The position numbers were made by a program, and so were the translations under genes. From Kiritimatiellaceae bacterium (lineage in GTDB: Bacteria > Verrucomicrobiota > Kiritimatiellia > Kiritimatiellales > Tichowtungiaceae), in assembly GCA_013141415.1 (NCBI GenBank), contig JABFQY010000001.1, forward strand, positions 1 to 64,000: a stretch of 64,000 nt of DNA, written 5' to 3'. How positions within the stretch are numbered: the first letter of the stretch is position 1; each line of letters starts with the position of its first letter. Positions 6,296 through 41,800 of this stretch are shown here, one piece after another. The notes under the pieces were generated by a model that was not told the DNA's origin, made no database searches, and saw only the letters and a list, made by a program, of their open reading frames with translations.

Positions 6296-7876
6296 ATGAA
6301 TAATCCTCCCAACAGCCAGATGTTAACCATCTGGGGCTTTGTTTTGGTTTTTTTTGGGGCGATCCTTTATTTCGTCAGCAAGGGACAGTTTATTCATGCC
6401 GGTGTAGCGGCCGCTTTGATTCCGCTTCTGACCTTGGCGCATTCCCCAGGTAAATGGTGGCTGGTGGCGGTAATGCTCTCCAATAGCGGGCTGGTAATTC
6501 CGGGCGCTGCGACAAAGCTCGCCGCCCCTCTTCTTGCCAGTGCTGGCTTTATCGGGCTTTCACTGCTGGACCGTATTTCTCACGGAACCAAATTGAGGAC
6601 TCTGGGTTCGCCCCAACGAATGGCGGGGGCGCTGGTTCTTTTATTGGTGTGTCTTGCTTCGTATCGCGGCTGGGGGCTGAAGTTTTTGGGAAGCGCCAAC
6701 TGGGGCGGGATGCAATACATTCAGTTGATGGTCGGGCTCCTATTTTTCTTTTACTCCAGACAAGTGAAAGTCGGTGAGAAATGGCTTTCCCGGGCGATTA
6801 TGCTTTATTTCGGTTTAGCGCTTCTGCCTACAACGATTACGTTGCTCGCCCTTTATATTCCGGCGTTGTCTGCACTCGGGGCGTTTATTGAAATTGAAAA
6901 ATCGACGCAGTTTGATCCGTCTGCGATCGGGGCTGGGATTAAGCGGGTTCAATCTCTGCATATGCCGGCGACCGTGCTTAGCTACTTCGCTCTGCTGCTG
7001 TTCGATCGGAATCTTAAAGTTTCCTGGAAAGTGCTCGGAGTGGGAGCGGGCTCCTTTGTGCTGGCGGGAATGTCCGGCCATCGCGTTGTAATCGTTAAGA
7101 TGGGGTTGCTGGTGGCAATTTATGCAGTGATACGATGGCGGAAAATTCCTCAGGCAGTGAAGCTGAAGGGGGCCGTTGCGGGCCTTTGTTTGCTGGCTTC
7201 AATTTATGCTTTTGCCCAGTTTCTGCCGCTTGGATTCCAGCGGTCACTGAGCGTTCTGCCGGGAATTACAGTAGGGGGTGTTGCCAGAGGAGACGCGCAG
7301 AATACATCTGACTGGCGCATTGAGATGTGGCGCAAGGCGCTGCCGATGATTCCGGAATATCTGTTGATCGGTCGCGGGTCGGGATTTAACCTGAAAGAAG
7401 CCTATGGCGCGTATACTTTGGCATCCGATACAACTACGAAGCATGAGTTTTTTATCGCCACGCACAGCTATCATAACGGCCCGCTTTGGGCCTTGGTTGA
7501 CTTGGGGGCGCCAGGCGCTTTTCTGGTGTTTGGGTTTATGGTGACAGCCATTATCCGCTATGGCCGGAGGCTTACCTGGAACCATTCGCCATTTATGGGA
7601 TCCGCCTATGCCGTTTTCTATTCCGTGCTGATTTCATATTTCATCTTTTTTCTGGCGGTTTTCGGCTATTCTGGAGACGTTATTCAGATGGCGTTGCTAG
7701 CCGCTATCCTTGAGGTAATCAGCGAGCAGGTGAAGGGAGCGTCTAAAAACAGCCAGACAAGGACGGAGATCAGATCCGGATGGAGGTCTTTACAAAAGAC
7801 GGGTCACCCTAACGGCACCCGGCATCCATCGCCCGACCCTTACCGCCTGACTAACAATCCGAAAACGACAGTATGA
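6296..7876 (+). CDS. Wzy / O-antigen ligase-type membrane protein
   Basis: This protein of about 526 residues has roughly 11-12 membrane segments and a large periplasmic loop near residues 340-420, the architecture of Wzy polymerases and WaaL-type ligases. Within the loop, YLLIGRGSGFNLKEAYGAYT followed by FFIATHSYHNGPLWALVDLG resembles the Wzy_C region. I chose the ATG at 6296 because the longer reading frame begins at a TTG inside the upstream glycosyltransferase gene. The C-terminal 45 residues are polar and not membrane-embedded. A second Wzy_C protein is encoded at 22.7 kb, so one may polymerise and the other ligate or transfer. Assignment between the two roles is not possible here. Confidence 0.78.
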   Translation: MNNPPNSQMLTIWGFVLVFFGAILYFVSKGQFIHAGVAAALIPLLTLAHSPGKWWLVAVMLSNSGLVIPGAATKLAAPLLASAGFIGLSLLDRISHGTKLRTLGSPQRMAGALVLLLVCLASYRGWGLKFLGSANWGGMQYIQLMVGLLFFFYSRQVKVGEKWLSRAIMLYFGLALLPTTITLLALYIPALSALGAFIEIEKSTQFDPSAIGAGIKRVQSLHMPATVLSYFALLLFDRNLKVSWKVLGVGAGSFVLAGMSGHRVVIVKMGLLVAIYAVIRWRKIPQAVKLKGAVAGLCLLASIYAFAQFLPLGFQRSLSVLPGITVGGVARGDAQNTSDWRIEMWRKALPMIPEYLLIGRGSGFNLKEAYGAYTLASDTTTKHEFFIATHSYHNGPLWALVDLGAPGAFLVFGFMVTAIIRYGRRLTWNHSPFMGSAYAVFYSVLISYFIFFLAVFGYSGDVIQMALLAAILEVISEQVKGASKNSQTRTEIRSGWRSLQKTGHPNGTRHPSPDPYRLTNNPKTTV

Positions 7877-8496
7877 AACGAACACTTAGAAATAAACTTT
7901 ACTCCGCATGGGATCTGCTTTGGATCAAGCTGGATTTCGGCAGTTCAACTCTGTGCAGCCGGATTTCTCTATGGTGGCAGGGCTGTTCTCCGGGGAAGGG
8001 ACTCAAAACAAGCGGCCCTTGCTATTTCAAAGCACGGGCAGCGGGATCCATCGTGATCGGGGAAAGTATGTACCTCAATGCAAGTCACCGCACAAACAGA
8101 GTGGGATTGAATAATCCCGTATTGATAGAAACTCTGGGCGACGGGGTTATTGAAATTGGATCCTGCAGCGGGGCTTCATCGGTGGTGATATCTTCCCGTT
8201 CCAGAATAACCATCGGCAGCAACACCATAATGGGCGGAAACGTCCGGATATTTGATCACGACTTTCACTCATTGAATCCATCTGCGTGGCGAACCAGTGA
8301 GGACGCAAAGCTGGTTCAGTCCAGACCGGTTACGATCGGGAACAATGTTTTTATTGGAACCAACGCCATGGTTCTTAAAGGCGTCAGTATCGGCGATAAC
8401 GCGGTTATTGGCGCGGGATCTGTTGTTACAAAAAATGTCGGGAACGGGGAAATTTGGGCGGGCAATCCCGCCAGGAAAATCGGGATGGTTAAGTGA
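7873..8496 (+). CDS. Hexapeptide-repeat acyltransferase
   Basis: This 207-residue protein belongs to the left-handed beta-helix (LbH) acyltransferases, which use acyl-CoA to O- or N-acylate sugars. Hexapeptide turns are visible in IEIGSCSGASSVVISSRSRI, the conserved FDHDFHS stretch that contributes the catalytic histidine is near residues 126-132, and PVTIGNNVFIGTNAMVLKGV plus SIGDNAVIGAGSVVTKNV form the last coils. Its start overlaps the stop of the Wzy-like gene (ATGA), and it overlaps the next acyltransferase by four bases. It probably acetylates a sugar of the polymer. Confidence 0.85.
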   Translation: MKRTLRNKLYSAWDLLWIKLDFGSSTLCSRISLWWQGCSPGKGLKTSGPCYFKARAAGSIVIGESMYLNASHRTNRVGLNNPVLIETLGDGVIEIGSCSGASSVVISSRSRITIGSNTIMGGNVRIFDHDFHSLNPSAWRTSEDAKLVQSRPVTIGNNVFIGTNAMVLKGVSIGDNAVIGAGSVVTKNVGNGEIWAGNPARKIGMVK

Positions 8497-11307: not shown

Positions 11308-12771
11308 ATGCGAACCGATCTCCCGACATTTCGAGCATCTTTGCGACTAAAAATGAGCGCCCAAAAAACAAGCTGGTTTTTGTTTTTCGACAAAGGTGAT
11401 GAGGTGCTGGCTTTGCCGTCATGGGCTGCGCCGCGCATTCTGATCGTTTCGCGCTCACTGCGGCAGCGCTGGCGCGACAGTGCCGCTTTCTATCCGGCAT
11501 TTCGTTTTCGAGCCAGACTTGTGAAGCTGGTTGTCCGGACAGCTGCGGCCTTTTTCCCGAGGCTGTTTTTGCGGCAGAGCAGAAAAGATGCAGGCGGTAC
11601 AAAGTACAGGCTGGCAAAGTTCTTAAATCACACATTTCCCAGCTTCAAACAGTCGGCCATCGCCTATTCACTGTTTTCGGATTATTTCATTTCCACCGGA
11701 ATCCTTGCGGCAGACGAATATGTTGACTGTGCTGATCGACGGGGGCAGCTGACCGATCTGCTTCGCAACTGGTTTCCCCAAACTGATCGGGTGGTCTTGG
11801 TGGCCGGCGCAGCTTCTGATCCCAAGCAAAAGCTCGTTGCCAAGCTGGTGGATCAAGGCGGCAAGATGGTCGGATTTGTTAAATTCGGAGAAAAGCCTCT
11901 TGCGCGCCAGCGCATTGAAACTGAGGCTGAGATTCTGCAGTCACTGCCTGCGGGATGCGGCCCCTGTTTCCAGGGAGTGGAGAAATCTGAACCCTACTCC
12001 TGTTTTGCCATGAGCGCAGTGGACGGAAAGATGCCGGAAGCGAAGCTTCCTGCATCGGTTGACAGTTATCAGCTGTCGGCAGTCAGGGAATATTTAGAAA
12101 GGCTCCGGATATCCGATGTCACATTTGGTGTGGACGACCATCCCGCTATTATGAGGATACGTAAAGAAGTGGCGGGTGGCGGGTGGCAAGTGGCAAGCGA
12201 CCCCCGCCAGCCATCAACCATCAACGAACAACTGGACAGCTTGCTGGAGCCTCTGCGGGAGCAGCGCTGGCCGCTAGTCATTCAACATGGTGATTTCACA
12301 CCGTGGAACGTGTTGCGCATCTCCGAGGGCAGAAGACTGAAGGTGGAGGATGGCAGCCTATCGTCTGTTGTCAGTCATCAGTCGTCCGAACTATGCGCGA
12401 TTGACTGGGAAGAAGGAACGACCGAAGGATTCCCTCATTTTGATTTTATTTATTACATTCTGCAAACGGCCTATTTCATGCACCACTGGTCCGCCGCGCA
12501 GGCATCCGCTTATGCTCGGGATGTTCTTAGTTCCCAGTTGTCAGTTGATAGGGACTGCCCAACAACGACCAACTATCAACCATCAACTGAGCCGTTTTCT
12601 GTTCCCAGTCATCCGTCTTCCGTCATCAGTTCTCTGATAAAGCTTGCTGCATTGGATGCCTGGTTGGCCGGAGAACGCGGTGGCCTTTCCGGCAAGCCGC
12701 TTCAGCAATTCCGTCTTTCAATAGTTAACTTTTCTGCCGCAGGCGGATCTGCCAGAGGCAGAAAGACCTAG
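11308..12771 (+). CDS. APH/choline-kinase-like phosphotransferase
   Basis: This 487-residue protein ends in an aminoglycoside-phosphotransferase-fold kinase domain: FVKFGEKPLARQRIETEAEI near 190-210, the catalytic loop HGDFTPWN at about 327-334 and the metal-binding IDWEEG near 364-369. The first 150 residues are not recognised. Three stretches of low-complexity residues (near 288-308, 341-361 and 408-442) coincide exactly with 7-bp repeat arrays in the DNA, and the last residues are encoded by a REP-like palindrome, so the gene has been expanded in frame by repeats. Together with the preceding kinase fusion it may phosphorylate a sugar or alcohol precursor. The substrate is unknown. Confidence 0.65.
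   Translation: MRTDLPTFRASLRLKMSAQKTSWFLFFDKGDEVLALPSWAAPRILIVSRSLRQRWRDSAAFYPAFRFRARLVKLVVRTAAAFFPRLFLRQSRKDAGGTKYRLAKFLNHTFPSFKQSAIAYSLFSDYFISTGILAADEYVDCADRRGQLTDLLRNWFPQTDRVVLVAGAASDPKQKLVAKLVDQGGKMVGFVKFGEKPLARQRIETEAEILQSLPAGCGPCFQGVEKSEPYSCFAMSAVDGKMPEAKLPASVDSYQLSAVREYLERLRISDVTFGVDDHPAIMRIRKEVAGGGWQVASDPRQPSTINEQLDSLLEPLREQRWPLVIQHGDFTPWNVLRISEGRRLKVEDGSLSSVVSHQSSELCAIDWEEGTTEGFPHFDFIYYILQTAYFMHHWSAAQASAYARDVLSSQLSVDRDCPTTTNYQPSTEPFSVPSHPSSVISSLIKLAALDAWLAGERGGLSGKPLQQFRLSIVNFSAAGGSARGRKT
12168..12234. repeat. In-frame degenerate repeat array with inverted arms
   Basis: The left arm repeats ggcgggt and ggcaagt with about 7-bp period. The right arm carries cgccagc, catcaac and catcaac. 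The arms are roughly complementary in base composition, G-rich followed by C-rich, and lie in frame in the APH-like kinase gene. Confidence 0.7.
12330..12390. repeat. In-frame degenerate repeat array with inverted arms
   Basis: The left arm contains gaagact, gaaggtg and gaggatg; the right arm contains gtctgtt, gtcagtc, atcagtc and gtccg. Reverse-complementing the right arm gives ggacgac, tgatgac and tgacaac, so the two sides can form an imperfect hairpin. It encodes the serine-rich insert after the catalytic loop of the kinase. Confidence 0.7.
12529..12632. repeat. In-frame degenerate repeat array
   Basis: The left side has cagttgt, cagttga; the right side has caacaacg, accaact, atcaacc and atcaact, followed by a second block of cagtcatccg, tcttccg and tcatcag. 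The left and first right block are complementary (cagttgat with atcaactg). It encodes a Ser/Thr/Pro-rich stretch of the kinase. Confidence 0.7.
12731..12764. repeat. REP-like palindrome at 3' end of kinase gene
   Basis: The arms tttctgcc (12731-12738) and ggcagaaa (12757-12764) are perfect complements, with a small inner hairpin ccgc/gcgg. It encodes the last residues of the kinase. Confidence 0.6.
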
Positions 12772-16323: not shown

Positions 16324-17562
16324 ATGAAAATTGCATTAATCGGTTCCAGAGGTATTCCCGCACGATACAGCGGGTTTGAGCAGTTCTATGAACAGTTTGC
16401 TGTTCGTCTGGCGGAGCGCGGTCATGAGGTGACGGTCTATAACCGTTCTCATTTTATTAAGGACGTGAAGAAGGAATATAAGGGAGTACGGATTGTTTCT
16501 TTGCCGTCGATTCCGACAAAACATCTGGACACAATCGTTCATACGGCGCTTTCCACGCTCCACGCTCTTTTTTGCCGTTACGACGTTGTTTATTACTGCA
16601 TCGTCGGCAACAGTCCGCTGGTCTGGATTCCCCGGCTGGCCGGAGCGAAGACGCTGATCAATGTGGACGGCGAGGACTGGGCGCGTGGGAAGTGGTCTGG
16701 TTTCGCGAAGACCTATCAAAAGTGGTGTGAAGGTGTCGCCTGTAAAGCGGCTAACGCCGTGATAGCCGACGCGAAGGGAATCCTGACCCGCTATCGCGAG
16801 TTATATAATCACGAAACTATATTTGTTCCGTACGGCGCAAATATCCGGAAAAATCTGCGATTTATTCCGGATTTTGCGCAGAAGTCAGAGGACAGAGGAC
16901 AGAAGTTTGAGGAACGTAGTGACAGACCTAATGCCCAAAGCCTAATGCCTAATGCCTTAAAAAAATATAATCTTCGTCCCGAAGAATATATTTTTTATGT
17001 CGGGCGGTTTGTTCCTGAAAACGCGATTGATCTGCTGATTCGGGCGTTCAGACGGTTGAAGACAGAAAAGAAACTGGTGGTGGTCGGCGATGCGCCGTAT
17101 GCCGACGGCTTCAAAAAGTCTCTGTACGAACTGGCCGCCGGCGATGAGCGGATTATTTTCACCGGGTATGCTTTCGGAGATGATTATGCGCAGCTGAGTG
17201 CAAACGCGTATTTCTATGTGCAGCCGGCTGGCATCGACGGAACGCGGCCTGCACTGCTGGATCAGATGGGCTTCGGTAACTGCGTGCTGGTGCGCAACTC
17301 CATTGTCAATATGGAGGTTATTGGTGACTGCGGCTGTTTTTTTGATAAAGAACGGCTGGAAGATTCGTTGGTCGAGGTCATGCAGGAACTGGTTGAAAAC
17401 GGCGACAAGGTGCAGGGTTACAGGGAGAGGGTAACCTCCCGCATCGAGAGCTACTACAACTGGGAATGGGTTACCGCCTTTTATGAAGATCTGTTTCTTC
17501 GTCTTAAAGAAGGCCGACCGGCCATTCAATACGATGACTTTTTAAAGGCGATACACGGATAG
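16324..17562 (+). CDS. DUF1972-type rhamnosyl/glycosyltransferase
   Basis: This 412-residue protein has the N-terminal DUF1972 signature IALIGSRGIPARYSGFEQFY near 3-22, typical of rhamnosyltransferase-like GT4 enzymes of capsule loci, and a C-terminal GT domain with EEYIFYVGRFVPENAIDLLI and IIFTGYAFGDDYAQLSANAY. A stretch near residues 186-212 (SEDRGQKFEERSDRPNAQS and following) is encoded by a 7-bp repeat array and sits in the linker between domains, where an insertion is tolerable. The gene follows the previous GT4 gene by 33 bases. Confidence 0.88.
   Translation: MKIALIGSRGIPARYSGFEQFYEQFAVRLAERGHEVTVYNRSHFIKDVKKEYKGVRIVSLPSIPTKHLDTIVHTALSTLHALFCRYDVVYYCIVGNSPLVWIPRLAGAKTLINVDGEDWARGKWSGFAKTYQKWCEGVACKAANAVIADAKGILTRYRELYNHETIFVPYGANIRKNLRFIPDFAQKSEDRGQKFEERSDRPNAQSLMPNALKKYNLRPEEYIFYVGRFVPENAIDLLIRAFRRLKTEKKLVVVGDAPYADGFKKSLYELAAGDERIIFTGYAFGDDYAQLSANAYFYVQPAGIDGTRPALLDQMGFGNCVLVRNSIVNMEVIGDCGCFFDKERLEDSLVEVMQELVENGDKVQGYRERVTSRIESYYNWEWVTAFYEDLFLRLKEGRPAIQYDDFLKAIHG
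16880..16958. repeat. In-frame degenerate repeat array with two different arms
   Basis: The left half repeats gaagtca, gaggaca, gaggaca and gaagttt with 7-bp period. The right half repeats cctaatg, cccaaag, cctaatg, cctaatg. The two halves are purine-rich then pyrimidine-biased, as in other arrays here, but the pairing between them is weak. Confidence 0.7.
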
Positions 17563-18902: not shown

Positions 18903-20598
18903 TAAAGTCATAAATCGGGTACTTAATGCACTGCCGCTACTTATCTTTTCGGCAATGCTTATCGGTCTGCTTCTGGTTCGGATGCTGTTCGATATGGTTC
19001 TTCCGGCTTGGGGCGCATGGGGAATCGGCCTTATCTGGTGTGTGATGGCATTCGATTATTTAGTCCGCGCAGAGCTGTTTAAGCAGATCGGCGGGTTTGC
19101 CGTGATGGCCCTCTCTGTTCTGATTCTGATTGGTGCGCTGATGCCTAAAGAGGACGTCGCCTGTTATCCGCGTATGGCTTCCGAGGAGATAGTTCAGAAG
19201 TTTGAATCGACGTGGAATGCGCTCTACACAGGAAATATTTTTGAGACCTATAGCCCGAAGCAACAGTTGCTTGATTATGGAACGTCGCTCAGAAACCTCG
19301 ACCCGTTTCGTCACGGGAAGATGATTTTATTCGGTCTGCTCGGATTTGCGCTGGCCGTTTGTTATCTGTTTCCGATCGAGCCGTTCCCGCGCAAGCGGAG
19401 GGTTGATGGTTGTCAAATGGAAGTTGATAAGGAACCCCCAACAACTCAACAACTTAACAACCTAACAACTGGCGCGAAAACCGCTTACGCGAATCGCTTC
19501 GCGCTCCTCTTCCTTACCGGTGCTGTTTTCGCCGTTCAGATGGAGCTGCTTCAGGTGCTTTCACCGACCCGTATGGTGACCGGGGGCAGTGTTCTGGACA
19601 GCTGTTTCGGAATTCTGGCCGGACTTCTGCTTTTTGTGCCGATACACTTTTTTTATCTTCGGCTGGCAGAGCATCGCGCAAAAGGATCTCGGCGGTTTAA
19701 TGTTCTTGGGGTTGGCGTTGATGCGGTGAATATGGAGGACTGTCTTCAATTATTCGAACGAATCATTGAAGGCGAGAGGACGGAGGACGGAGGACGGAGG
19801 ACAGAAAGTGAAGGTCTGTCATCGGTTGTCTGTCATCAGTCATCCGGGCTAAAAGCCCGTCTTCCTGCGATGACGAGCGCGCTCGGAGTCGCGGGAATCA
19901 TGGAAGCCCGGCGCAATCCGGAAATGCAGCGTATCCTGAACGAGTCGGTGCTGAATACGCCGGACGGCATGCCGCTGGTCTGGTTGGGCAAGCTATTTGG
20001 TTATCAGAATATCGAACGGGTTTACGGCCCCGACCTGTTGCGCGATGTTTGCGCCTATTCGGCGTCCAAGGGCCGAGTTACGCCGGAAGGGCTGATTGAA
20101 GGCGGATGGAAACACTTTTTTTACGGTGCGGCCCCGGGAATTGTTGAAAAACTGAAGACGGAGTTAGAGCGAAAACATCCCGGCATCCGGGTCGCCGGAA
20201 TTTACTGTCCGCCGTTTCGTCCGCTGACGCCAGAGGAAGAAGCTGACCTGATTGCGCAAGTGGCGAAGGCCAAGCCGGATATTTTCTGGATCGGTATCAG
20301 CACGCCCAAACAACTCTACTTTATGGATCAGATGCGCGATAAGCTGGACTGCAAGATCATCTGTCCGGTCGGCTACGCCTTTGACGTGAACGCTGGCGTT
20401 CAGGAAGATGCCCCGGATTGGGCGAAGTATTCGGGCTTCCAGTGGCTGCATCGGGCCATCAAACAACCGCGACTTTGGAAGCGCTATCTACCGGACAATC
20501 CCGGCTTTGTTTTTAAAGTGACTTTGCAAATTCTCCATCTGAGAAAATATCCGATGTTGACCGGCGGGCAGCAGGTGAAAAGGCGAACAACGGAGTGA
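18892..20598 (+). CDS. VanZ-like membrane domain fused to WecG/TagA/CpsF glycosyltransferase
   Basis: This protein of about 568 residues combines an N-terminal membrane domain with a WecG/TagA/CpsF (GT26) domain. The membrane part has a VanZ-like pattern, RHGKMILFGLLGFAL near 139-153 and ELLQVLSPTRMVTGGSVLDS near 216-235. The GT26 part begins at FNVLGVGVDAVNMEDCLQLF and includes TPDGMPLVWLGKLFGY, FFYGAAPGIVEKL and KPDIFWIGISTPKQ, followed by the conserved VGYAFDVNAGVQEDAPDW. Such enzymes usually add the second sugar to undecaprenyl-PP-sugar, which fits the adjacent WbaP-type gene. Two repeat arrays lie in the domain borders. I chose the ATG at 18892, overlapping the upstream stop. Confidence 0.85.
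   Translation: MKNNKVINRVLNALPLLIFSAMLIGLLLVRMLFDMVLPAWGAWGIGLIWCVMAFDYLVRAELFKQIGGFAVMALSVLILIGALMPKEDVACYPRMASEEIVQKFESTWNALYTGNIFETYSPKQQLLDYGTSLRNLDPFRHGKMILFGLLGFALAVCYLFPIEPFPRKRRVDGCQMEVDKEPPTTQQLNNLTTGAKTAYANRFALLFLTGAVFAVQMELLQVLSPTRMVTGGSVLDSCFGILAGLLLFVPIHFFYLRLAEHRAKGSRRFNVLGVGVDAVNMEDCLQLFERIIEGERTEDGGRRTESEGLSSVVCHQSSGLKARLPAMTSALGVAGIMEARRNPEMQRILNESVLNTPDGMPLVWLGKLFGYQNIERVYGPDLLRDVCAYSASKGRVTPEGLIEGGWKHFFYGAAPGIVEKLKTELERKHPGIRVAGIYCPPFRPLTPEEEADLIAQVAKAKPDIFWIGISTPKQLYFMDQMRDKLDCKIICPVGYAFDVNAGVQEDAPDWAKYSGFQWLHRAIKQPRLWKRYLPDNPGFVFKVTLQILHLRKYPMLTGGQQVKRRTTE
19400..19472. repeat. In-frame degenerate repeat array with inverted arms
   Basis: The left arm has ggttgat, ggttgtc and aagttgat. 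The right arm has caacaact, caacaact, taacaacc and taacaact with about 8-bp period. The right arm reverse-complements to agttgtt units, so the arms can pair. It encodes a Thr/Gln/Asn-rich loop between membrane helices of the VanZ-like domain. Confidence 0.72.
19771..19860. repeat. In-frame degenerate repeat array plus small palindrome
   Basis: The left arm repeats ggaggac with exact 7-bp period four times. The right arm has gtctgtc, atcggtt, gtctgtc, atcagtc and atccg. It is followed by the hairpin cgggct-aaa-agcccg. The array encodes an Arg/Glu/Ser-rich insert inside the GT26 domain. Confidence 0.75.
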
Positions 20599-22134: not shown

Positions 22135-22136
22135 AT

Positions 22137-22745
22137 GTATGGGAGTCGTGGGGTAAGGGAGTATGGGCGTGATCATGTATGGACATGTCGGAGTTTGAAT
22201 TTTTTTACACTCTGTTACTCCGCTACACCCTTGCCCCGATACTCTAGGGAAGGTTTTAGATATGGGTGAGTTCGCGAAAAGTTTTCGGGATTTAGACGTG
22301 TATCAGGAGTCGTTGGCGCTCGCGCTGGGAATCCACGAGTTCGCAAAGACGCTTCCTCCTGAAGAACGGTTTGTTCTAGCAGATCAAATGCGACGCGCAT
22401 CTCGCTCCGTTCCCGCAAATATTTCCGAGGCTTGGCGCAAACGGCGTTATAAAGCGGCCTTTATTTCCAAACTAAGTGATGCAGAAACTGAAGCGGCAGA
22501 AATGCAATGCTGGCTCGATTTCGCGCTGAAAGCTAAATACATGGAACAGATTGTGTATCAAGATTTTGACCAACGATATGAGCATGTGATCGCTCAGCTT
22601 ATTACAATGATTGATGGTGCCGCCGGTTGGTGCCGACAGTGAAGTGGGGGTGTAATGATGTATGGGAGTTAATGAGTCTACTCCCGCACTCCGCCGCTCC
22701 CGTACGCCCACACGCCCACACTCCCCTACACCCACACCCCTTCTG
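22137..22745. mobile_element. IVS-like cassette 1: S23 four-helix-bundle gene between repeat arrays
   Basis: The cassette consists of a left array with gggagtcgt, ggggtaa, gggagtat and gggcgtga units followed by a C-rich return arm (22206-22246), the S23-type gene at 22262-22642, and a right array (22645-22745) with gtgggggt and tatgggagt followed by a long C-rich arm. Reverse-complementing that arm gives 8-bp units gggagtgt, gggcgtgt, gggcgtac and gggagcgg. The layout, inverted degenerate arms around an S23 gene, resembles the intervening sequences found in some 23S rRNA genes, but it sits between two EPS genes. No transposase is present, so mobility is inferred. Confidence 0.55.
22262..22642 (+). 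CDS. S23 / four-helix-bundle protein (23S rRNA intervening-sequence type)
   Basis: This 126-residue protein belongs to the S23/bIVP family of small helical proteins first found in intervening sequences of 23S rRNA and related to Avd, the helical accessory protein of diversity-generating retroelements. The conserved pattern is visible: FRDLDVYQESLALALGIHEF near 8-27, LADQMRRASRSVPANISEAW near 39-58 and FISKLSDAETEAAEMQCWLD near 67-86. A tctagggaagg ribosome-binding region precedes the ATG. The family is basic and may bind nucleic acid, but its biochemical role is unsettled. No reverse transcriptase gene is present in the window. It is nested between inverted arrays of 8-bp repeats. Confidence 0.88.
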   Translation: MGEFAKSFRDLDVYQESLALALGIHEFAKTLPPEERFVLADQMRRASRSVPANISEAWRKRRYKAAFISKLSDAETEAAEMQCWLDFALKAKYMEQIVYQDFDQRYEHVIAQLITMIDGAAGWCRQ

Positions 22746-22747
22746 CT

Positions 22748-24157
22748 ATGTCCAAAATTGAAAAACTAACCGTAGCGACCCTTCTCATCGCCGCGACCCT
22801 CTCCGCCGCTCTCTACGGCATATGGGAGGACAAGGCGACGCTTTGTGCACCACTTCTTGTCTTGGTCTATATCGCACTTGCCGCATGGATTCTGTCCTCA
22901 GTCTTCCGTCGTCCGACCTCCGACCTCCGACCTCCGGCCTCTGGAAGCATGATCCCGCCCGGCGGGATCATGCTTCTCCTCTTCTGGCTCTACAGCCTGG
23001 CTCTGATTCCTTTTTCGGTGCTTCCGTATGAAGCCAAAATCAGCTCGCTCGAATTCGGAGGCTATCTGGCCGTTTACTGGCTTGCCGCAAATATTCTTTC
23101 CCGCTTTTCTTACCGACGAGCCGTCTGGACAACCGTTTTTGTTTTGCTGGTTTTTGTCGCACTCTACAGTCTGGTGCAGCACCGCATCGCGCCTAACTTG
23201 ATTTTTGGCATGGAGCGTTACACGACGTATTGGGAGTCAGGCCGTCTGGGCGGAACCTATCAATGTCCCAACCATATCGCCCATCTCTTCCAGATGTGGC
23301 TCCCATTCTGTCTGGTTTTTCTTTTTATTCCGCAGTTCGGCTGGTTCTGGCGTATTTGCTTTGCCTACGCTCTGGCGCTGTTTGCATTGCTGATCTACCA
23401 AACGCAGTCGCGCGCGGGACTTCTCGGCAGCGTGGCGGCGCTGGGCGCAACCGTGCTCTTTCTGATTCTGCGCAAAAGCCGCCGCGCCGTTATGGTCTCG
23501 ATTCTGATCGTCCCCTTGCTCGTCGCGGCGACTCTTGGCGGACTCTGGACGGGCTCCGCGATGTTCCGTACCCGCATGCAGCCGGTTGTGAATGTTTTAT
23601 CGCTGGCGGCGGCCGGAGATTGGGAGCGCGTGGCGGCCATCGATTTCCGTCCGCAGACATGGCTCGATACGATTGAGATGATCAAAACTCGGCCGGTCTT
23701 CGGATTCGGCCCGGGGAATTACGAACTGACGTATGAAGATTACCGTCAGCGGTGTCAGGCTGTTCGTATCGAAACGGTTCATGCACACAACGAATACCTC
23801 GAACTGACCGCAGAATACGGATTGGTTGGCGGTGCGCTGGCTCTTTGGGCGCTGATCAGTTTGTCGGCGACCGCGATCCGCTTCGTAAAAACATCAGATC
23901 GTTCCTACCACGCCTTACCGGTCATTGCCCTGCTTGGCGCACTGACTGGCACGGCCGTACACGGATTTTTCGATTTCGAACTCCGCATTTTTCCGAATGC
24001 GATCATGCTGGCCCTGCTGGCTGGCTGTGCGGTCGCTCCCATCATGCAGACTGGAGGACGGAGGGCGGAAAACGGAAGACAGAGGACGGAGGTCGGGGGG
24101 AGGAAGACAGAGGACGGAAGTGAGGGGGATCATGGGAGACAGAATAGAGTCGTTTGA
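22748..24157 (+). CDS. O-antigen ligase / Wzy_C family membrane protein
   Basis: This 469-residue protein has about ten membrane segments and a Wzy_C loop: RPVFGFGPGNYELTYED near 314-330 followed by VHAHNEYLELTAEYGLVGGA near 343-362, the typical histidine-containing motif of O-antigen ligases and Wzy polymerases. Two repeat arrays lie in the gene. The first, near residues 55-75, extends a loop and includes a palindrome. The second replaces the C-terminus after AGCAVAPIMQT with an Arg/Glu/Gly tail and runs into the next S23 cassette. Homologues often carry a C-terminal TPR domain; here a TPR gene follows separately at 24518, so the original gene may have been split. Confidence 0.85.
   Translation: MSKIEKLTVATLLIAATLSAALYGIWEDKATLCAPLLVLVYIALAAWILSSVFRRPTSDLRPPASGSMIPPGGIMLLLFWLYSLALIPFSVLPYEAKISSLEFGGYLAVYWLAANILSRFSYRRAVWTTVFVLLVFVALYSLVQHRIAPNLIFGMERYTTYWESGRLGGTYQCPNHIAHLFQMWLPFCLVFLFIPQFGWFWRICFAYALALFALLIYQTQSRAGLLGSVAALGATVLFLILRKSRRAVMVSILIVPLLVAATLGGLWTGSAMFRTRMQPVVNVLSLAAAGDWERVAAIDFRPQTWLDTIEMIKTRPVFGFGPGNYELTYEDYRQRCQAVRIETVHAHNEYLELTAEYGLVGGALALWALISLSATAIRFVKTSDRSYHALPVIALLGALTGTAVHGFFDFELRIFPNAIMLALLAGCAVAPIMQTGGRRAENGRQRTEVGGRKTEDGSEGDHGRQNRVV
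22891..22976. repeat. In-frame repeat array followed by a perfect palindrome
   Basis: The first part repeats ccgacct three times and then ccggcct with 7-bp period, after cagtcttccgtcgt. It is followed by a REP-like hairpin with 16-bp perfect arms, 22944-22959 and 22961-22976, starting gaagcatgat. The whole block stays in the reading frame of the O-antigen ligase-like gene. Confidence 0.72.
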
Positions 24158-24606
24158 GGATTTGGAAGTTTATCAATTAGCTCTGGAGTTGCAGCAGGAG
24201 ATATTTGCGCTGACAAAAGCGTTTCCGGCTGAAGAAAAGTATTCACTAACGGATCAGATTCGAAGGTCTTCCCGATCCATTGGGGCAAACATTAGCGAAG
24301 CGTGGGGTAAGCGACAGTACCCTGCCCATTTTGTAAGCAAGCTGAGTGATTCAGACGGAGAGCAGAATGAAACGCGGCATTGGTTGCGATCAGCTTTCTT
24401 GTGCAAATATATTTCAGAGTTGGAGTTTAATGCGCTGGTTGAGAAGTGCAAAATCATCGGGCGCAAGCTTGGCAATATGATGCAACACCCAGATCAATGG
24501 ATTCCCAAGGGGCATCGATGAAAAATCGTTTTTCACCGTCAGTCTTCTGTCGTCGGTCTTCGGTTCTCCATTCCGTCTTCCGTCTTCTGTTCTCGGTCTT
24601 CATCCT
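24048..24606. mobile_element. IVS-like cassette 2: S23 four-helix-bundle gene between inverted 7-bp arrays
   Basis: The left array (24048-24126) is purine-rich with units ggaggac, ggaagac, agaggac and ggaagac. The right array (24537-24606) is its degenerate reverse complement with gtcttct, gtcgtcg, gtcttcc and gtcttct. The S23-type gene lies between them. Left and right arms could pair into a long imperfect stem of about 70 bases, as in rRNA intervening sequences. The left array ends in gaggggg just before the ATG of the S23 gene and so supplies its ribosome-binding site. Mobility is inferred from layout alone. Confidence 0.6.
24132..24521 (+). CDS. S23 / four-helix-bundle protein, second copy
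   Basis: This protein of about 129 residues is a paralogue of the S23-type protein at 22262 and keeps the family pattern: FEDLEVYQLALELQQEIFAL near 8-27, LTDQIRRSSRSIGANISEAW near 39-58 and FVSKLSDSDGEQNETRHWLR near 67-86. The two copies are clearly homologous but strongly diverged, so they are not a recent duplication. I chose the ATG at 24132 because the longer frame reads through the repeat array. The stop overlaps the start of the TPR gene (ATGA). Function of the family is not established; RNA or DNA binding is plausible. Confidence 0.88.
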   Translation: MGDRIESFEDLEVYQLALELQQEIFALTKAFPAEEKYSLTDQIRRSSRSIGANISEAWGKRQYPAHFVSKLSDSDGEQNETRHWLRSAFLCKYISELEFNALVEKCKIIGRKLGNMMQHPDQWIPKGHR

Positions 24607-25147
24607 TCTCGCAGCAGTCTGGTCCGCGCAGGTCATGAGTTCGGCCTGGATCCGCGCACGCGCCGACCAAGTTCTGCTGGAGTTGAACTTCCGGCGGGCC
24701 GAAACGCTTTTTAAAACGGCGGAACAAATCGATGCGCAAAACTGGCGGGCGCAAATGGGCCTCGGACAGGTTTATTATCATGATCGGTATTATGAACTCG
24801 ATCCGGCTCTCAAACACGAATGGGCGCTCAAGGAGCAGGCGGCCTATGCGGCTGCCTACCGGACAAACGCAAAAAAAGACGAAGTAATTTACGGCTTGGG
24901 GCGCGTCGAACTGTTTCTCGGCAATCGGGACAAGGGGCTGGATTATTTGCGGCAGGTCGCGCGCTACAAACGCTTCAACGATTTTTACTGGCGTAAGCTC
25001 GGCATCGAACTGCGTAAAGCCGGACTCTATGACGAGGCACTAAGCGCGTTCGAGTACGCACAGAAGTTGGACAACTCCAATGCGACCGTGAAGCGGAACA
25101 TCGCGTGGATCAAGTCAAAGACCGGCTCTGCCGGCGGTAAAAAATGA
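24518..25147 (+). CDS. Membrane-anchored TPR protein, probably split from O-antigen ligase
   Basis: This protein of about 209 residues has one hydrophobic segment (VFRLLFSVFILLAAVWSAQV near 20-39) followed by tetratricopeptide-like helical pairs: RAETLFKTAEQIDAQNWRAQ, YGLGRVELFLGNRDKGLDYL and LRKAGLYDEALSAFEYAQKL. Such a helix-plus-TPR module is often the C-terminal part of O-antigen ligase proteins. Its first 20 residues are encoded by the right array of the S23 cassette, and the ATG overlaps the S23 stop, so this start is probably secondary to an insertion that split the ligase gene. It overlaps the next GT2 gene by four bases. Confidence 0.7.
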   Translation: MKNRFSPSVFCRRSSVLHSVFRLLFSVFILLAAVWSAQVMSSAWIRARADQVLLELNFRRAETLFKTAEQIDAQNWRAQMGLGQVYYHDRYYELDPALKHEWALKEQAAYAAAYRTNAKKDEVIYGLGRVELFLGNRDKGLDYLRQVARYKRFNDFYWRKLGIELRKAGLYDEALSAFEYAQKLDNSNATVKRNIAWIKSKTGSAGGKK

Positions 25148-26055
25148 AGTTTTCGATCATAACACCTGCCCTCAACCAGCTGCCGTATCTCAAGCGCTGT
25201 ATTGCATCCGTCGCCGACCAGCAGGGCGTCGAGGTGGAACACATCGTAATCGACGGCGGCTCAACAGACGGAACCGTCGAGTGGCTGAATACTGTTGCGG
25301 ATCGCTACCGCTTGACGTTTATCAGCGAGCCGGACAAGGGAATGTACGACGCGCTCAACAAAGGCGTAACTCTTGCCCTGCAAAAACAGGGTGATGAGAA
25401 TTTGCCCGACAACTGGCAACAGACAACTGGCAACTGCGACGATGAAATCGTCGCTTGGCTCAACTGCGACGAGCAATACTTGCCCGGCACGCTGGAGAAA
25501 GTGGCTCAGTATTTTACAGAACACCCGGACGCGGACGCAGCGTATGGAGATGTTTTGCTGGTTAGCCCGGACGGCGGACTGTTGACTTGCCGTAAAAACC
25601 CGCCGTTGCGCCGAGCGTACATTCTCGCAGATCATCTTTATGCACACAGTGCGTCCATGTTTTTCCGTTCCGGAATTTTTGATTCAGGCCTCCGGTTTGA
25701 TTCTTCGTGGAAAGCGGTCAGCGACTGCGATTTTATTCTGCGCGTACTGAAATCCGGATTCCGGTTCGGGCAGATTAAAAAATATCTGTCCGCTTGCACC
25801 ATGAGCGGGGAAAACCTGAGTCGCCAGCAAGCCGGCATAGAGGAGCTGAAAGCTTTTCGCCGCCTTTCGCCACCGCTGTATCGCATGGGCCGTCCGGCGT
25901 GGAACGCCTTCCGATACCTTGAAAAATTTCTGCGCGGCGGATATGCGCAGGCCTTGCCGCTGGAGTACGAATTGTACACGGAAGATTTGGATCGCCGTCG
26001 GCTGATTCGTGCGAGGGCCGCGAGCTGTAAGTTCAGGTGGGACGGTAATGAATAG
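25144..26055 (+). CDS. GT2 family glycosyltransferase
   Basis: This 303-residue GT-A enzyme is a homologue of the GT2 protein at 9003. It shows SIITPALNQLPYLKRCIASV, VEHIVIDGGSTDGTVEWL, the DKGMYDALNKGV stretch and the NCDEQYLPGTL metal-site region. A short insert near residues 85-100 (NLPDNWQQTTGNCDD) is encoded by a 7-bp repeat and lies just before the NCDE site. It is translationally coupled to genes on both sides (ATGA overlap upstream, eight-base overlap downstream). The transferred sugar is unknown. Confidence 0.87.
   Translation: MKFSIITPALNQLPYLKRCIASVADQQGVEVEHIVIDGGSTDGTVEWLNTVADRYRLTFISEPDKGMYDALNKGVTLALQKQGDENLPDNWQQTTGNCDDEIVAWLNCDEQYLPGTLEKVAQYFTEHPDADAAYGDVLLVSPDGGLLTCRKNPPLRRAYILADHLYAHSASMFFRSGIFDSGLRFDSSWKAVSDCDFILRVLKSGFRFGQIKKYLSACTMSGENLSRQQAGIEELKAFRRLSPPLYRMGRPAWNAFRYLEKFLRGGYAQALPLEYELYTEDLDRRRLIRARAASCKFRWDGNE
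25408..25440. repeat. Short in-frame 7-bp repeat array
   Basis: The units caactgg, caacaga, caactgg and caactgc follow each other with 7-bp period inside the GT2 gene, adding about ten residues. Confidence 0.7.
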
Positions 26056-27154
26056 CCGTCGTAAACTCATCATCGTCGGGCAGACTCCGCCGCCATATAA
26101 CGGGCAGGCGAAGATGATTCGGCAGATGATAGATGGCCTTCGGGATGAGTTTGATCTGCTGCATATCCGGATGGGCTACAGTGATTCTGTTGTATCGGCC
26201 GGAAAGTTTAGGATGTCCAAAATCACGCACCTGTTTCACCTGATTCGTGAAACGCGGCGGGCGCTGCAACAACACCCCGGTGCCGTCCTTTATTATCCGC
26301 CCGCATCCCCGAATTGGATTCCGGTTCTGCGCGACATCATTTATCTGCTTGCGGTGCGCCCCCTCGCGGCGAAAACCGTGTTGCATTTTCATTCCGGCGG
26401 AGTTTCTGAGTTTGTTCTGCAACACCGCTGGCTGAAAAGACCGGCTTGCAAGGCTTATGGAAAGGCGGATGTTGCGATCGAGCTCGGCCGCTCCTGTCCG
26501 CATGACGGTAAGTTTTTCGAAGCTCGCCGGGTTGTGGTTGTTCCGAACGGAATCAATATTCCCGTGTCGGCAAGAAATCGGCAATCGGCAATCGGCAATC
26601 TAAAAATTCTCCATGTCGGCATTCACACTGAATCGAAAGGCCTGTTTGACTTGCTGGAAACGGCGAAAGAATTAAAACGGCGCGGCGTTTCTTTTGAAAT
26701 CCGGACGGCAGGGTTGTGGTATACAGATCGGGAAAGAGACCGATTCAACCGGATGCGCAAAGAATACGGGCTGGAGGCCGAGGTGTTGACGACGGGACAA
26801 AAAACCGGCGCAGAGCTTTGGTCGCTTTACAGCTGGGCCGATGTGTTTTTCTTTCCGACATTCTATCCGTGGGAAACGTTCGGTATCGTACAGTTGGAAG
26901 CGATGGCTTACGGACTGCCTGTGGTTGCCTCCGATTGGCAGGGGCCGAAAGATGTGGTACTCAACGGCGAAACCGGATTCCTCTGTCCTGCACGCGACAC
27001 AAAAGGGTTTGCTGATGCGCTGCAACGTCTCGCTCAAGACGGCGCCATGCGGGCGCAAATGGGCCGGGCCGGACTGGAGCATTACCGACGGCACTTTACG
27101 GCGGATTGTTTTGTCCGGAACATGAAACAGGTTTTTGACGAGGTGCTCACATGA
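26048..27154 (+). CDS. GT4-type glycosyltransferase
   Basis: This protein of about 368 residues has the N-terminus KLIIVGQTPPPYNGQAKMIR typical of GT4 enzymes of EPS loci, a GT-B linker with VVVPNGINIPVSARN, and the C-terminal motifs ILHVGIHTESKGLFDLLETA and YPWETFGIVQLEAMAYGLPV (E-x7-E). Residues near 177-188 are encoded by a short gcaatcg repeat at the domain border. The ATG at 26048 overlaps the end of the GT2 gene, and the 3' end overlaps the SDR gene by four bases. Confidence 0.88.
   Translation: MNSRRKLIIVGQTPPPYNGQAKMIRQMIDGLRDEFDLLHIRMGYSDSVVSAGKFRMSKITHLFHLIRETRRALQQHPGAVLYYPPASPNWIPVLRDIIYLLAVRPLAAKTVLHFHSGGVSEFVLQHRWLKRPACKAYGKADVAIELGRSCPHDGKFFEARRVVVVPNGINIPVSARNRQSAIGNLKILHVGIHTESKGLFDLLETAKELKRRGVSFEIRTAGLWYTDRERDRFNRMRKEYGLEAEVLTTGQKTGAELWSLYSWADVFFFPTFYPWETFGIVQLEAMAYGLPVVASDWQGPKDVVLNGETGFLCPARDTKGFADALQRLAQDGAMRAQMGRAGLEHYRRHFTADCFVRNMKQVFDEVLT
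26569..26600. repeat. Short in-frame 7-bp repeat array
   Basis: The unit ggcaatc is repeated three times after ggcaagaaatc, in the interdomain linker of the GT4 gene. Confidence 0.72.
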
Positions 27155-38899: not shown

Positions 38900-41800
38900 A
38901 TGAACATGATTTTCAACGCATCGGCGGGAACGGGCAAGACCTGGCAGGTCACCGAACTCTATACCGCGCTGGTGCTGGGAAAAGATCATGAACACCTGCC
39001 TGCCGGACGGCAGGCGATCGATCCGCGCCGGATTCTTCTGATGACCTTCACCGACAACGCCGCCGCCGAACTGCGCTGTCGCGTCGCGGAAAAAATGCTC
39101 GCCGCCGAAAAGAGCGGCGATGATGAGCAGGCCGACCGTGCACGGCGGGTTTTGCGTTCACTGCCTGCCGCCGGCATTTCTACTATCCATGCCTTTTGTG
39201 CCGGGCTGCTTCGCGAGCATGCGCTGGAACTCGGGCTCTCCCCGGCTTTCCAGACCTTGGAAGACGAAGAACGCGACGCGTTGCTCGACGAGGTGTTGAA
39301 GGCGGAAATTTTTCAAAACCTGGAGGGCGACGCGGACTTCCGCGAATTCTGTTCCGGTGTTTCGATTCTTGGTTCGCTGGATAATCAGTACAGTCTGATC
39401 AACACCATCCGCTCGCTGCTCGAAAAATCCGCCAGCCGCGGACTCAATCTGAATAACGCCGAAGCGATGCTTCCGCCGCCGGAACGCACGGTTGGTGAAA
39501 AAGATTTCCGCAAACTCTATGAACAGCTTCGCTCGATTGAAGCGGATCGCGGCCTGCCAGCTAAAGCCACAACCGCGCTCCAATGTCTGGAAGAAATCTG
39601 TAGGCCGGGTGACCTCACCCGGCGAATTCCTTTGATCGAATCGCTGACCAAATTTACCGGTAAGGGGATGAAAGAAATTTCCGATGAACTGGCGGAACTG
39701 AAAGAACGGTTTCTGACGGGATATTTTTACGAACAGAATATTAGTCAGTTCCGCGCCTTTGCACGGTGCTTGTCGGCCTGTTCGTGCGGCTTTACCGAAG
39801 CGAAGCGGTCGCGCGATGCGGTGGATTTCGGCGATCAGCTTTTGCTGGCGCGCGATCTGCTCCGGAGGGGACAGCTCAAGAATCTGTTTGACTGGATTAT
39901 CGTAGATGAAGTGCAGGACACCTCGCGGGTGCAGTGCGATGTCATAGAAGCGCTTTGGGGTAAAGAGGCGCATCTGGTGATCTGCGGCGACCGTAAACAG
40001 TCGATTTATGCCTGGCGCAGTGCCGATCCCGATGTCATGCCGATGCTGGGAAAAAAAATGGCTACGCACGGCGGATTTAAACCGGTTCCGCTAAAGAAGA
40101 GCAGGCGAAGCAAAGACCGTGTGATTGATGCGGTCAATAAACTTTTCGGGTCGCTCTACGATTCTTATGACGCACTGGAGCCCTGTGAAGAGATTGGCGC
40201 TGTGACAGACGGAGAAGGGCCTTGCGTTGAATTTTTGATGCAGGACGGCGACGAAAGCACAACCGATGACGAAATGACGGCGGTCGCGAGCCGTATCCGT
40301 CTGCTGGTGGATGGCGGCGCGGAATGGCGTCCAAGGTTTGGATACAACGGTAAAACTTTTTCCAAAGGCGAACCGTTCAATTACGGCGATATCCTGATTT
40401 TGCTGAAACGCTCGACGCATCAGTCGGTGCTGGAGGAAGCGCTGCGCGATGCTGGGATTCCATATACCAGCGGCGGCAAAGGCCGCGCTCTCTTTGAACA
40501 GCAGGAAGTTCGTGATCTGCTTTTGTTTCTGCAAGTGCTTTGCGAGCCGACGAACGATCTGGCGCTGATTGGATTTTTGCGTTCACCGTTCGCCAGTGTG
40601 CCGGACGATGAAATCGTTAAACTCGGCTGGGACGGTGAAACGTTCAGCCACGAAATCCTTCGCAAACAGTTTTTTGCGACAGCCCCAGTTGTAGGACAAG
40701 GTTGCCGTTCCTTGCAGTCACTGCCTCGCAATAACGAGGCCTCTCTCTCTTCGTTCGAGTCTCTGTATTCAGAGAGCTTGTGTTCTTCGTGCGGACAGGA
40801 CGACACACGCTCCCGGATACGGGAAGCGCGTCCTACAAGCTTCAGTGATACGACATCAGCGGCGGCAGAACGGCTCTTGCGCTACCGCGCCCAGACCGGC
40901 GGGAAACTGGCGGCGCAGCTGGTGCGCGAAATCGTCCGCGAAACAGCGTTCGATGCACAGCTAGCCGGACTGCCGGGCGGTGAACAGCGGCTGGCGAATT
41001 TTAAAAAGGCGCTCGACTGGATTCGCGCCGCCGAACGCGGCGGGCAGGTTCTTCTGCCGGATGTGGTGCGGCGGTTTGAAAAATATATTCAGACGCCGCC
41101 GCGCAGCGGAGCGGCGGAAGCGCTGCTGCCCGATCCAGAACAGAACTCGGTGACGCTGATGACGGTACACAGCGCGAAAGGGCTGACGAAACGGGTCTGT
41201 TTTGTGCCGGATATCAGCTTTGGCGAAAATACCGAGCCGGGCTTCGCGATGTTTTCTCCGGAAGGTCAGCTGGAGATGAAAATTTCCGGCCTTGCCGGAG
41301 ACGAAGTGAAATCGCCGGGCTGGGACGCGGCGCGCGAGGCCGATAAAGAGGTGCGCGATGTCGAACTGACGAATGTGTTTTATGTGGCGATGACCCGCGC
41401 CCGCGACCTCGTTGTTCTTTCCGGCGCCGGAACAAAAGATCCGAAAGGCTGGCGGAAGTTGGCAGAGGGTTTTTTGAGCGGCGCGTCTGCGAACATACTG
41501 CGCCGTTTGGCATTTTTAGATATCCCAGTGATAGCCGCGCCGCCTTCAGGAGTCAGGAATCAGGAGTCAGGAGCCGTTTGTGTTTCGCTCAGGATTCCAG
41601 TGGGAATTGAGCGAAAGACGGTAACTTCACTTTGTGAGAGAAATTCATCAATCGCCAATCGCCAATCATCAATCATCAATCCCGCCGTATACGGCTCTCT
41701 CGGTCATGCGGTATTGGAAGACCTGACGAAAAATAACTGGGCCGGAAATATTCCGGAACTGGTAGCGCTGTTCAGCGCGGAGTTCGGCGAAGTGGAAATG

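Follow-up and report, generated by a model that had tools for sequence, protein, structure and literature searches.

A gene for an S23-type protein lies in the loop of two inverted arms, each an array of degenerate heptamers, in the window analysed here (the whole stretch of 64,000 nucleotides of Kiritimatiellaceae DNA). Around S23 genes across phyla such arms are enriched and have a fixed polarity. The repeat word of the arms goes with the subfamily of the S23 protein, also where the sites are unrelated, and about half of the S23-less arrays dispersed in this genome carry the words of its resident S23 genes. That the same arrangement recurs across many phyla suggests a widespread mobile hairpin element, with a protein matched to its own 7-letter repeat. 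On balance, we lean toward the view that the locus holds a hairpin element of the intervening-sequence (IVS) type, with its own putative recognition protein, which resides in protein-coding transcripts and has REPIN-like derivatives that lack S23. For decades S23 proteins have been met in rRNA intervening sequences with no function assigned to them, and the heptamer repeats of bacteria have been without an explanation; linking the two, and matching word to protein, provides each with a testable partner. If the view is right, this class of element needs no recognisable transposase or reverse transcriptase to move or multiply.

The features of the locus and its surroundings are collected in Table 1. 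The first-pass annotation had described an S23 gene between inverted 7-bp arrays, and both its coordinates and its description hold. When periods 4-12 were compared in the two arrays, period 7 scored 21 within 24048-24131 (other periods at most 6) and 20 within 24522-24606 (other periods at most 5), and neither score was reached in 500 dinucleotide shuffles. The same annotation had proposed a stem with the gene in its loop, pairing better than shuffled sequence, and this is what folding predicts: the RNA of 24040-24610 has a fold of -204.8 kcal/mol vs. -176 +/- 7.1 kcal/mol for its shuffles (z=-4.05; 0/100) that includes a long arm-to-arm stem. The arms are also coding. The C-terminal tail of Wzy is read from the upstream arm, and an N-terminal segment of the TPR protein from the downstream arm. 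The S23 start overlaps the Wzy ORF at its end, and the S23 stop (TGA, 24519-24521) overlaps the TPR start as ATGA.

Table 1. The S23 element at the wzy-TPR locus, its host gene and neighbouring repeat features, in window coordinates
Feature	Position	Strand	Remarks
GGGAGTA-type repeat hairpin, upstream of cassette 1	22136-22248	+	G-arm 22136-22169, C-arm 22207-22248
Second S23 gene (cassette 1)	22262-22642	+	between a sugar transferase gene and wzy
GGGAGTA/ACTCCC-type repeat hairpin, downstream of cassette 1	22643-22740	+	period near 8
Host gene, 5' part	22748-24157	+	O-antigen ligase (Wzy_C) ORF; runs into the upstream arm
S23-less array TCCGACC / GGTCGGA	22891-22944	-	inside the wzy ORF
Upstream arm	24053-24118	+	G-rich degenerate heptamer array; units GGAGGAC, GGAAGAC, AGAGGAC
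S23 gene	24132-24521	+	S23 / 23S_rRNA_IVP / four-helix-bundle protein, 129 aa
Host gene, 3' part	24518-25147	+	transmembrane segment and TPR domain; restarts at the ATGA overlap
Downstream arm	24539-24608	+	heptamer array of reverse-complement polarity; units GTCTTC

The product belongs to the S23 protein family, with matches to PF05635 (E=2.5e-32; 111.7 bits vs. a cut-off of 33.8) and TIGR02436 (100.3 vs. a cut-off of 24). In profile searches the flanked gene matched only PF05635, bAvd and related S23-type models, the matches to PF22296 (bAvd) and DivGenRetAVD being weak. Its solved structural relatives, 2gsc and 2rld, assemble as pentamers. We know of no catalytic domain recognised in S23.

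In most relatives Wzy and TPR form a single ORF of about 620-790 aa. In the window, the S23 element is an insertion that splits this gene, and it sits in the linker between ...LAGCAVAPIMQT and ...ILLAAVWSAQVMSSAW. The locus shows how a gene becomes split while both of its halves remain readable. The earlier idea of an IVS-like element living between mRNA genes survives in part: the anatomy is that of an IVS placed outside rRNA, but the site lies inside what was formerly one continuous gene. One relative (G003) has an orthologous S23 insertion in wzy-TPR; in two congeners (G006 and G012) the point of insertion holds a heptamer hairpin that keeps the reading frame and lacks S23. Two other sites are informative. 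The gltB/gltD spacer is only 2-25 bp long in many genomes (empty), carries S23 in nine, and in G032 retains a remnant from which most of S23 has been deleted; lpd/pdhA is empty in most genomes, filled in the present one, and in G006 its S23 is partly deleted. Comparisons therefore show the same site filled in one genome, with S23 deleted in another and empty in a third, and the empty sites in relatives that the first-pass annotation had anticipated are among them. No target-site duplication was seen by eye at the junctions of these three sites. At a locus in another genome (L134, G009), the S23 gene at 7788-8158 is split over two frames, apparently a decaying copy, with a second S23 gene in the same locus.

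The second S23 gene of the window has a complete pair of G-arm and C-arm on each side. Its repeats are GGGAGTAT-like with a period near 8, so octamer families may exist. Around S23 genes of this phylum, period 8 is mildly enriched (13% and 11% vs. ~2% in controls), and periods 5, 6, and 9-11 little or not at all.

This genome has seven convincing S23 genes, each, as judged by eye, with its own repeat word in opposite polarity on the two sides. Among 120 distinct S23 genes of the phylum, which include many from related genomes and some from orthologous sites and so are not phylogenetically independent, 51% have period-7 arrays on both flanks vs. 1.1% of 1293 control genes, the flanks of which can include S23 arms. 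An array on either flank is found in 78% vs. 13%, and flanks similar in inverted orientation in 62% vs. 1.8%; the thresholds are our own choice. One locus, L008, was left out as doubtful because its match to PF05635 is weak. A named, cross-phylum genome collection supplied 75 loci, of which 84% have an array on either flank and 53% on both, with similarity between the flanks inverted in 63% and direct in 11%. Inverted arrays are thus enriched around other S23 genes, as the annotation had led one to expect, although some S23 genes have no detectable period-7 array. Upstream arms have more G than C in 66/71 cases and downstream arms more C than G in 74/84; the polarity of control-gene arrays was not used as evidence because the controls include neighbours of S23 genes and are confounded. 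The first array ends a median of 13 bp before the S23 start and the next begins 5 bp after the stop. Array length varies strongly (e.g., L181 and L330). The upstream neighbour is co-directional with S23 in 101 of 115 cases (88%) vs. 68% for control genes. None of the 55 S23 loci checked overlaps an rRNA family, and the candidate view of the loci as rRNA IVSs was rejected.

The word is coupled to the protein. Where two S23 genes have unrelated neighbours and their proteins are at least 0.8 identical, the word is shared in all five pairs. At non-homologous sites sharing falls to 40% at identities of 0.7-0.8, 28% at 0.6-0.7, and ~0.3% below 0.45 (Mantel test of word vs. S23 protein, 7/1000 permutations). 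At the gltB/gltD loci (L001 and its orthologues L032, L121, L126, L124, L125, L160, and L033) the units switch base together, reading TAG, CAG or GAG in different species in all units of both arms. At orthologous sites, chiefly gltB/gltD, with proteins 0.5-0.65 identical, similarity is greater between the upstream and downstream arms of an element than between corresponding arms of two species, in 9/9 pairs. Beneath the family-specific words there is a common grammar, NNNYYRG, in the upstream arms of different families and phyla. Its G is at 0.95 in the cross-phylum set, and in each of four sets the information content of the heptamer exceeds that of all 30 position-shuffled controls. The association of word and protein could reflect recognition of the word by the protein, and would also fit with co-inheritance of the two as a unit. 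The first-pass suggestion that the protein may recognise the arrays gains indirect backing at the level of sequence comparison, from this association and from the matching words in dispersed arrays.

In the 1.63 Mb of the 2.22 Mb genome that was covered, read as stretches, there are 67 period-7 segments with a score of at least 12, vs. 2-12 segments for periods 4, 5, 8, 10, 11, and 13. About 70 of the 81 arrays in the sampled 1.6 Mb do not adjoin an S23 gene. Of 58 S23-less arrays, 52% use a word that belongs to one of this genome's own seven S23 elements, vs. 4% after base relabelling. Of the 54 S23-less arrays that could be placed, 34 lie inside ORFs, and these are without strand bias (19:15). 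An example from the window is the S23-less array inside wzy, which has a word matching that of the S23 element at 24132 and sits in a linker whose length varies among relatives. Seven further S23-less heptamer arrays were noted in the window (12169-12232, 12563-12587, 16879-16957, 19776-19805, 25410-25436, 26576-26600, and 41546-41681). They are mostly in long ORFs with the frame kept, and several of their words are those of S23 elements of this genome or of relatives.

Xanthomonas arboricola (L333) and Luteimonas (L343) each have one S23 gene; it lies between accB and accC, which were recognised by the sequence they encode, and is flanked by GGGAATC arms. The dimer (GGGAATC)2 has 188 copies in Xanthomonas and 140 in Luteimonas; six other genomes, in which S23 goes with a different word, have none. 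Away from the S23 gene the copies form hairpins whose loops vary, and these have a subterminal A[AG]AGC motif in common with the S23 element (16/29 vs. 2.7% expected). The GGGAATC repeats had been described in 2015 as unexplained G-quadruplex repeats, with 90% of the array sites common to two species of xanthomonads (PMC4692102). This is an independent case, and it is the one that weighs most with us. That every genome with S23 disperses its word proved false: (GTTGGCT)2 and (ACTCGGA)2 are confined to the S23 locus in Maribacter, Marixanthotalea, and Geobacter. In Thiohalocapsa (AGTGGTT)2 was found as expected, but it also occurs at one place in Maribacter, and its reversed control is not clean.

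How else might these observations be explained? The arms could pair only in the sense transcript, where RNase III would cut the stem and release the S23 RNA, and neither S23 nor the arrays would have a role in spread. An anatomy like that of rRNA IVSs (PMC4990558), the strong fold at the locus, the co-directional upstream gene, and the better pairing of cognate than of non-cognate arms (median -82 vs. -64 kcal/mol) all speak for such an RNA-level IVS. We nonetheless consider it unlikely. Mismatches in the arms have no G-U bias in the sense RNA, G-U and A-C being equally frequent (176:176 and 93:111), and selection on the stem specific to sense RNA was rejected for this reason. The S23-less arrays inside ORFs ignore the strand, and dispersed arrays with the words of resident S23 genes would be left unexplained. 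Regulation deserves a similarly low credence. Here S23 would bind the arms of its own mRNA, controlling translation of its own and the flanking cistrons, and the other arrays would be the sites of a regulon. The close spacing of the arrays to the start and stop of S23, the overlapping starts and stops at the wzy-S23-TPR locus, and the co-directional placement in operons would suit such a module, as would the regulatory role proposed for TAACTGA heptamers upstream of starts (PMC4679880). It sits poorly, however, with the majority of the S23-less arrays lying inside ORFs in either orientation, and with sites that vary between related species and are often empty.

Passive simple-sequence repeats are still less probable, and we give them little weight. 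Polymerase slippage would expand the heptamers, S23 would be associated by chance, and homogenisation in the hairpin would keep the arms alike. Heptamer repeats are indeed over-represented in many bacteria (PMC4692102), the lengths of the arrays vary strongly, and words switch at once in all units of both arms. But slippage is not expected to produce the two-sided association with S23 or the fixed polarity, nor is it expected to produce the coupling of word and protein or a grammar common to different phyla.

The favored IVS-type element has likenesses to several known systems, and the S23 element may work by analogy with two of them, the 23S rRNA IVS and the REPIN-RAYT systems. In the 23S rRNA IVSs of Leptospira and Coxiella, too, a sense S23 ORF lies in a loop closed by terminal inverted repeats, and the size is similar, about 0.4-0.5 kb. 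The Coxiella rRNA IVS is excised by RNase III and has tandem heptamers before the S23 ORF (PMC4990558); in a search of the journal literature, this was the only prior link of S23 with heptamers. In contrast to the rRNA IVSs, the elements described here are in protein-coding transcripts (wzy-TPR, gltB/gltD, lpd/pdhA, and accB/accC), and have as arms heptamer arrays with family-specific words and dispersed S23-less relatives. Lying in wzy-TPR, the window element is by location not a 23S rRNA IVS. With REP/REPIN sequences and their RAYT (TnpA-REP) it has in common a gene flanked by inverted repeats, which recur throughout the genome in the form of short hairpins, and families of repeat and protein that match. 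Yet S23 is a small four-helix bundle and no Y1 (IS200-type) transposase, and the repeats are period-7 arrays instead of palindromes of ~20 nt; by its protein the window element is not a RAYT system. The GGGAATC repeats of Xanthomonas and GGGGA(C/T)T of Nostoc (PMC4692102) are the same kind of dispersed inverted heptamer pairs, and the Xanthomonas word is identical to that of the arms of the accB-S23-accC element, whereas that study regards them as G-quadruplex repeats, assigns them no protein partner and does not mention S23. Finally, Avd/bAvd of diversity-generating retroelements is a homologous helical bundle, as the weak profile matches indicate, but no reverse transcriptase, template repeat or variable repeat was seen, and the window element is not a retroelement. 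The reverse transcriptase family RVT_1 is absent from this genome and present in only 2 of 14 genomes of the genus; retro-mobility via a resident reverse transcriptase was rejected for this genome on that ground.

The course of events at the locus may be envisaged as follows. The linker of a once continuous wzy-TPR gene would have received a hairpin element, which left wzy, S23, and TPR as overlapping cistrons that could be translated in series. The host would tolerate the element because it is placed at cistron junctions or in flexible linkers of transcribed genes. We infer that the S23 protein recognises the arms by its own heptamer word when the nucleic acid is folded into a hairpin. S23 together with host enzymes might then make it possible to copy, move or rewrite the element and its derivatives without S23 in a REPIN/RAYT-like manner. 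The stem may also be a site of transcript cleavage, comparable to the cutting of rRNA IVSs by RNase III. The seven S23 copies of this genome are divergent, so no recent transposition is seen. Also weighing against the favored view are the array sites common to two xanthomonad species, the junctions at which no target-site duplication was seen, the lack of a known catalytic domain in S23 and of RVT_1 in this genome, pairing that is not specifically favoured in the sense RNA, and the many arrays that do not adjoin an S23 gene.

A broader proposal, which we put forward tentatively and hold to be somewhat less probable than its opposite, is that S23 proteins, each subfamily with its own heptamer word of the NNNYYRG grammar, are readers of these words that maintain or rewrite all units of both arms in concert, and that they belong to a bacteria-wide class of hairpin elements free of both transposase and reverse transcriptase. 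The rRNA IVSs and many dispersed heptamers (GGGAATC of Xanthomonas, and perhaps TAACTGA of Beggiatoaceae and cyanobacteria) would be its members or products. The TAACTGA arrays of Beggiatoaceae, cyanobacteria, and Bacteroidetes (PMC4679880) may, as candidates, be products of S23 elements.
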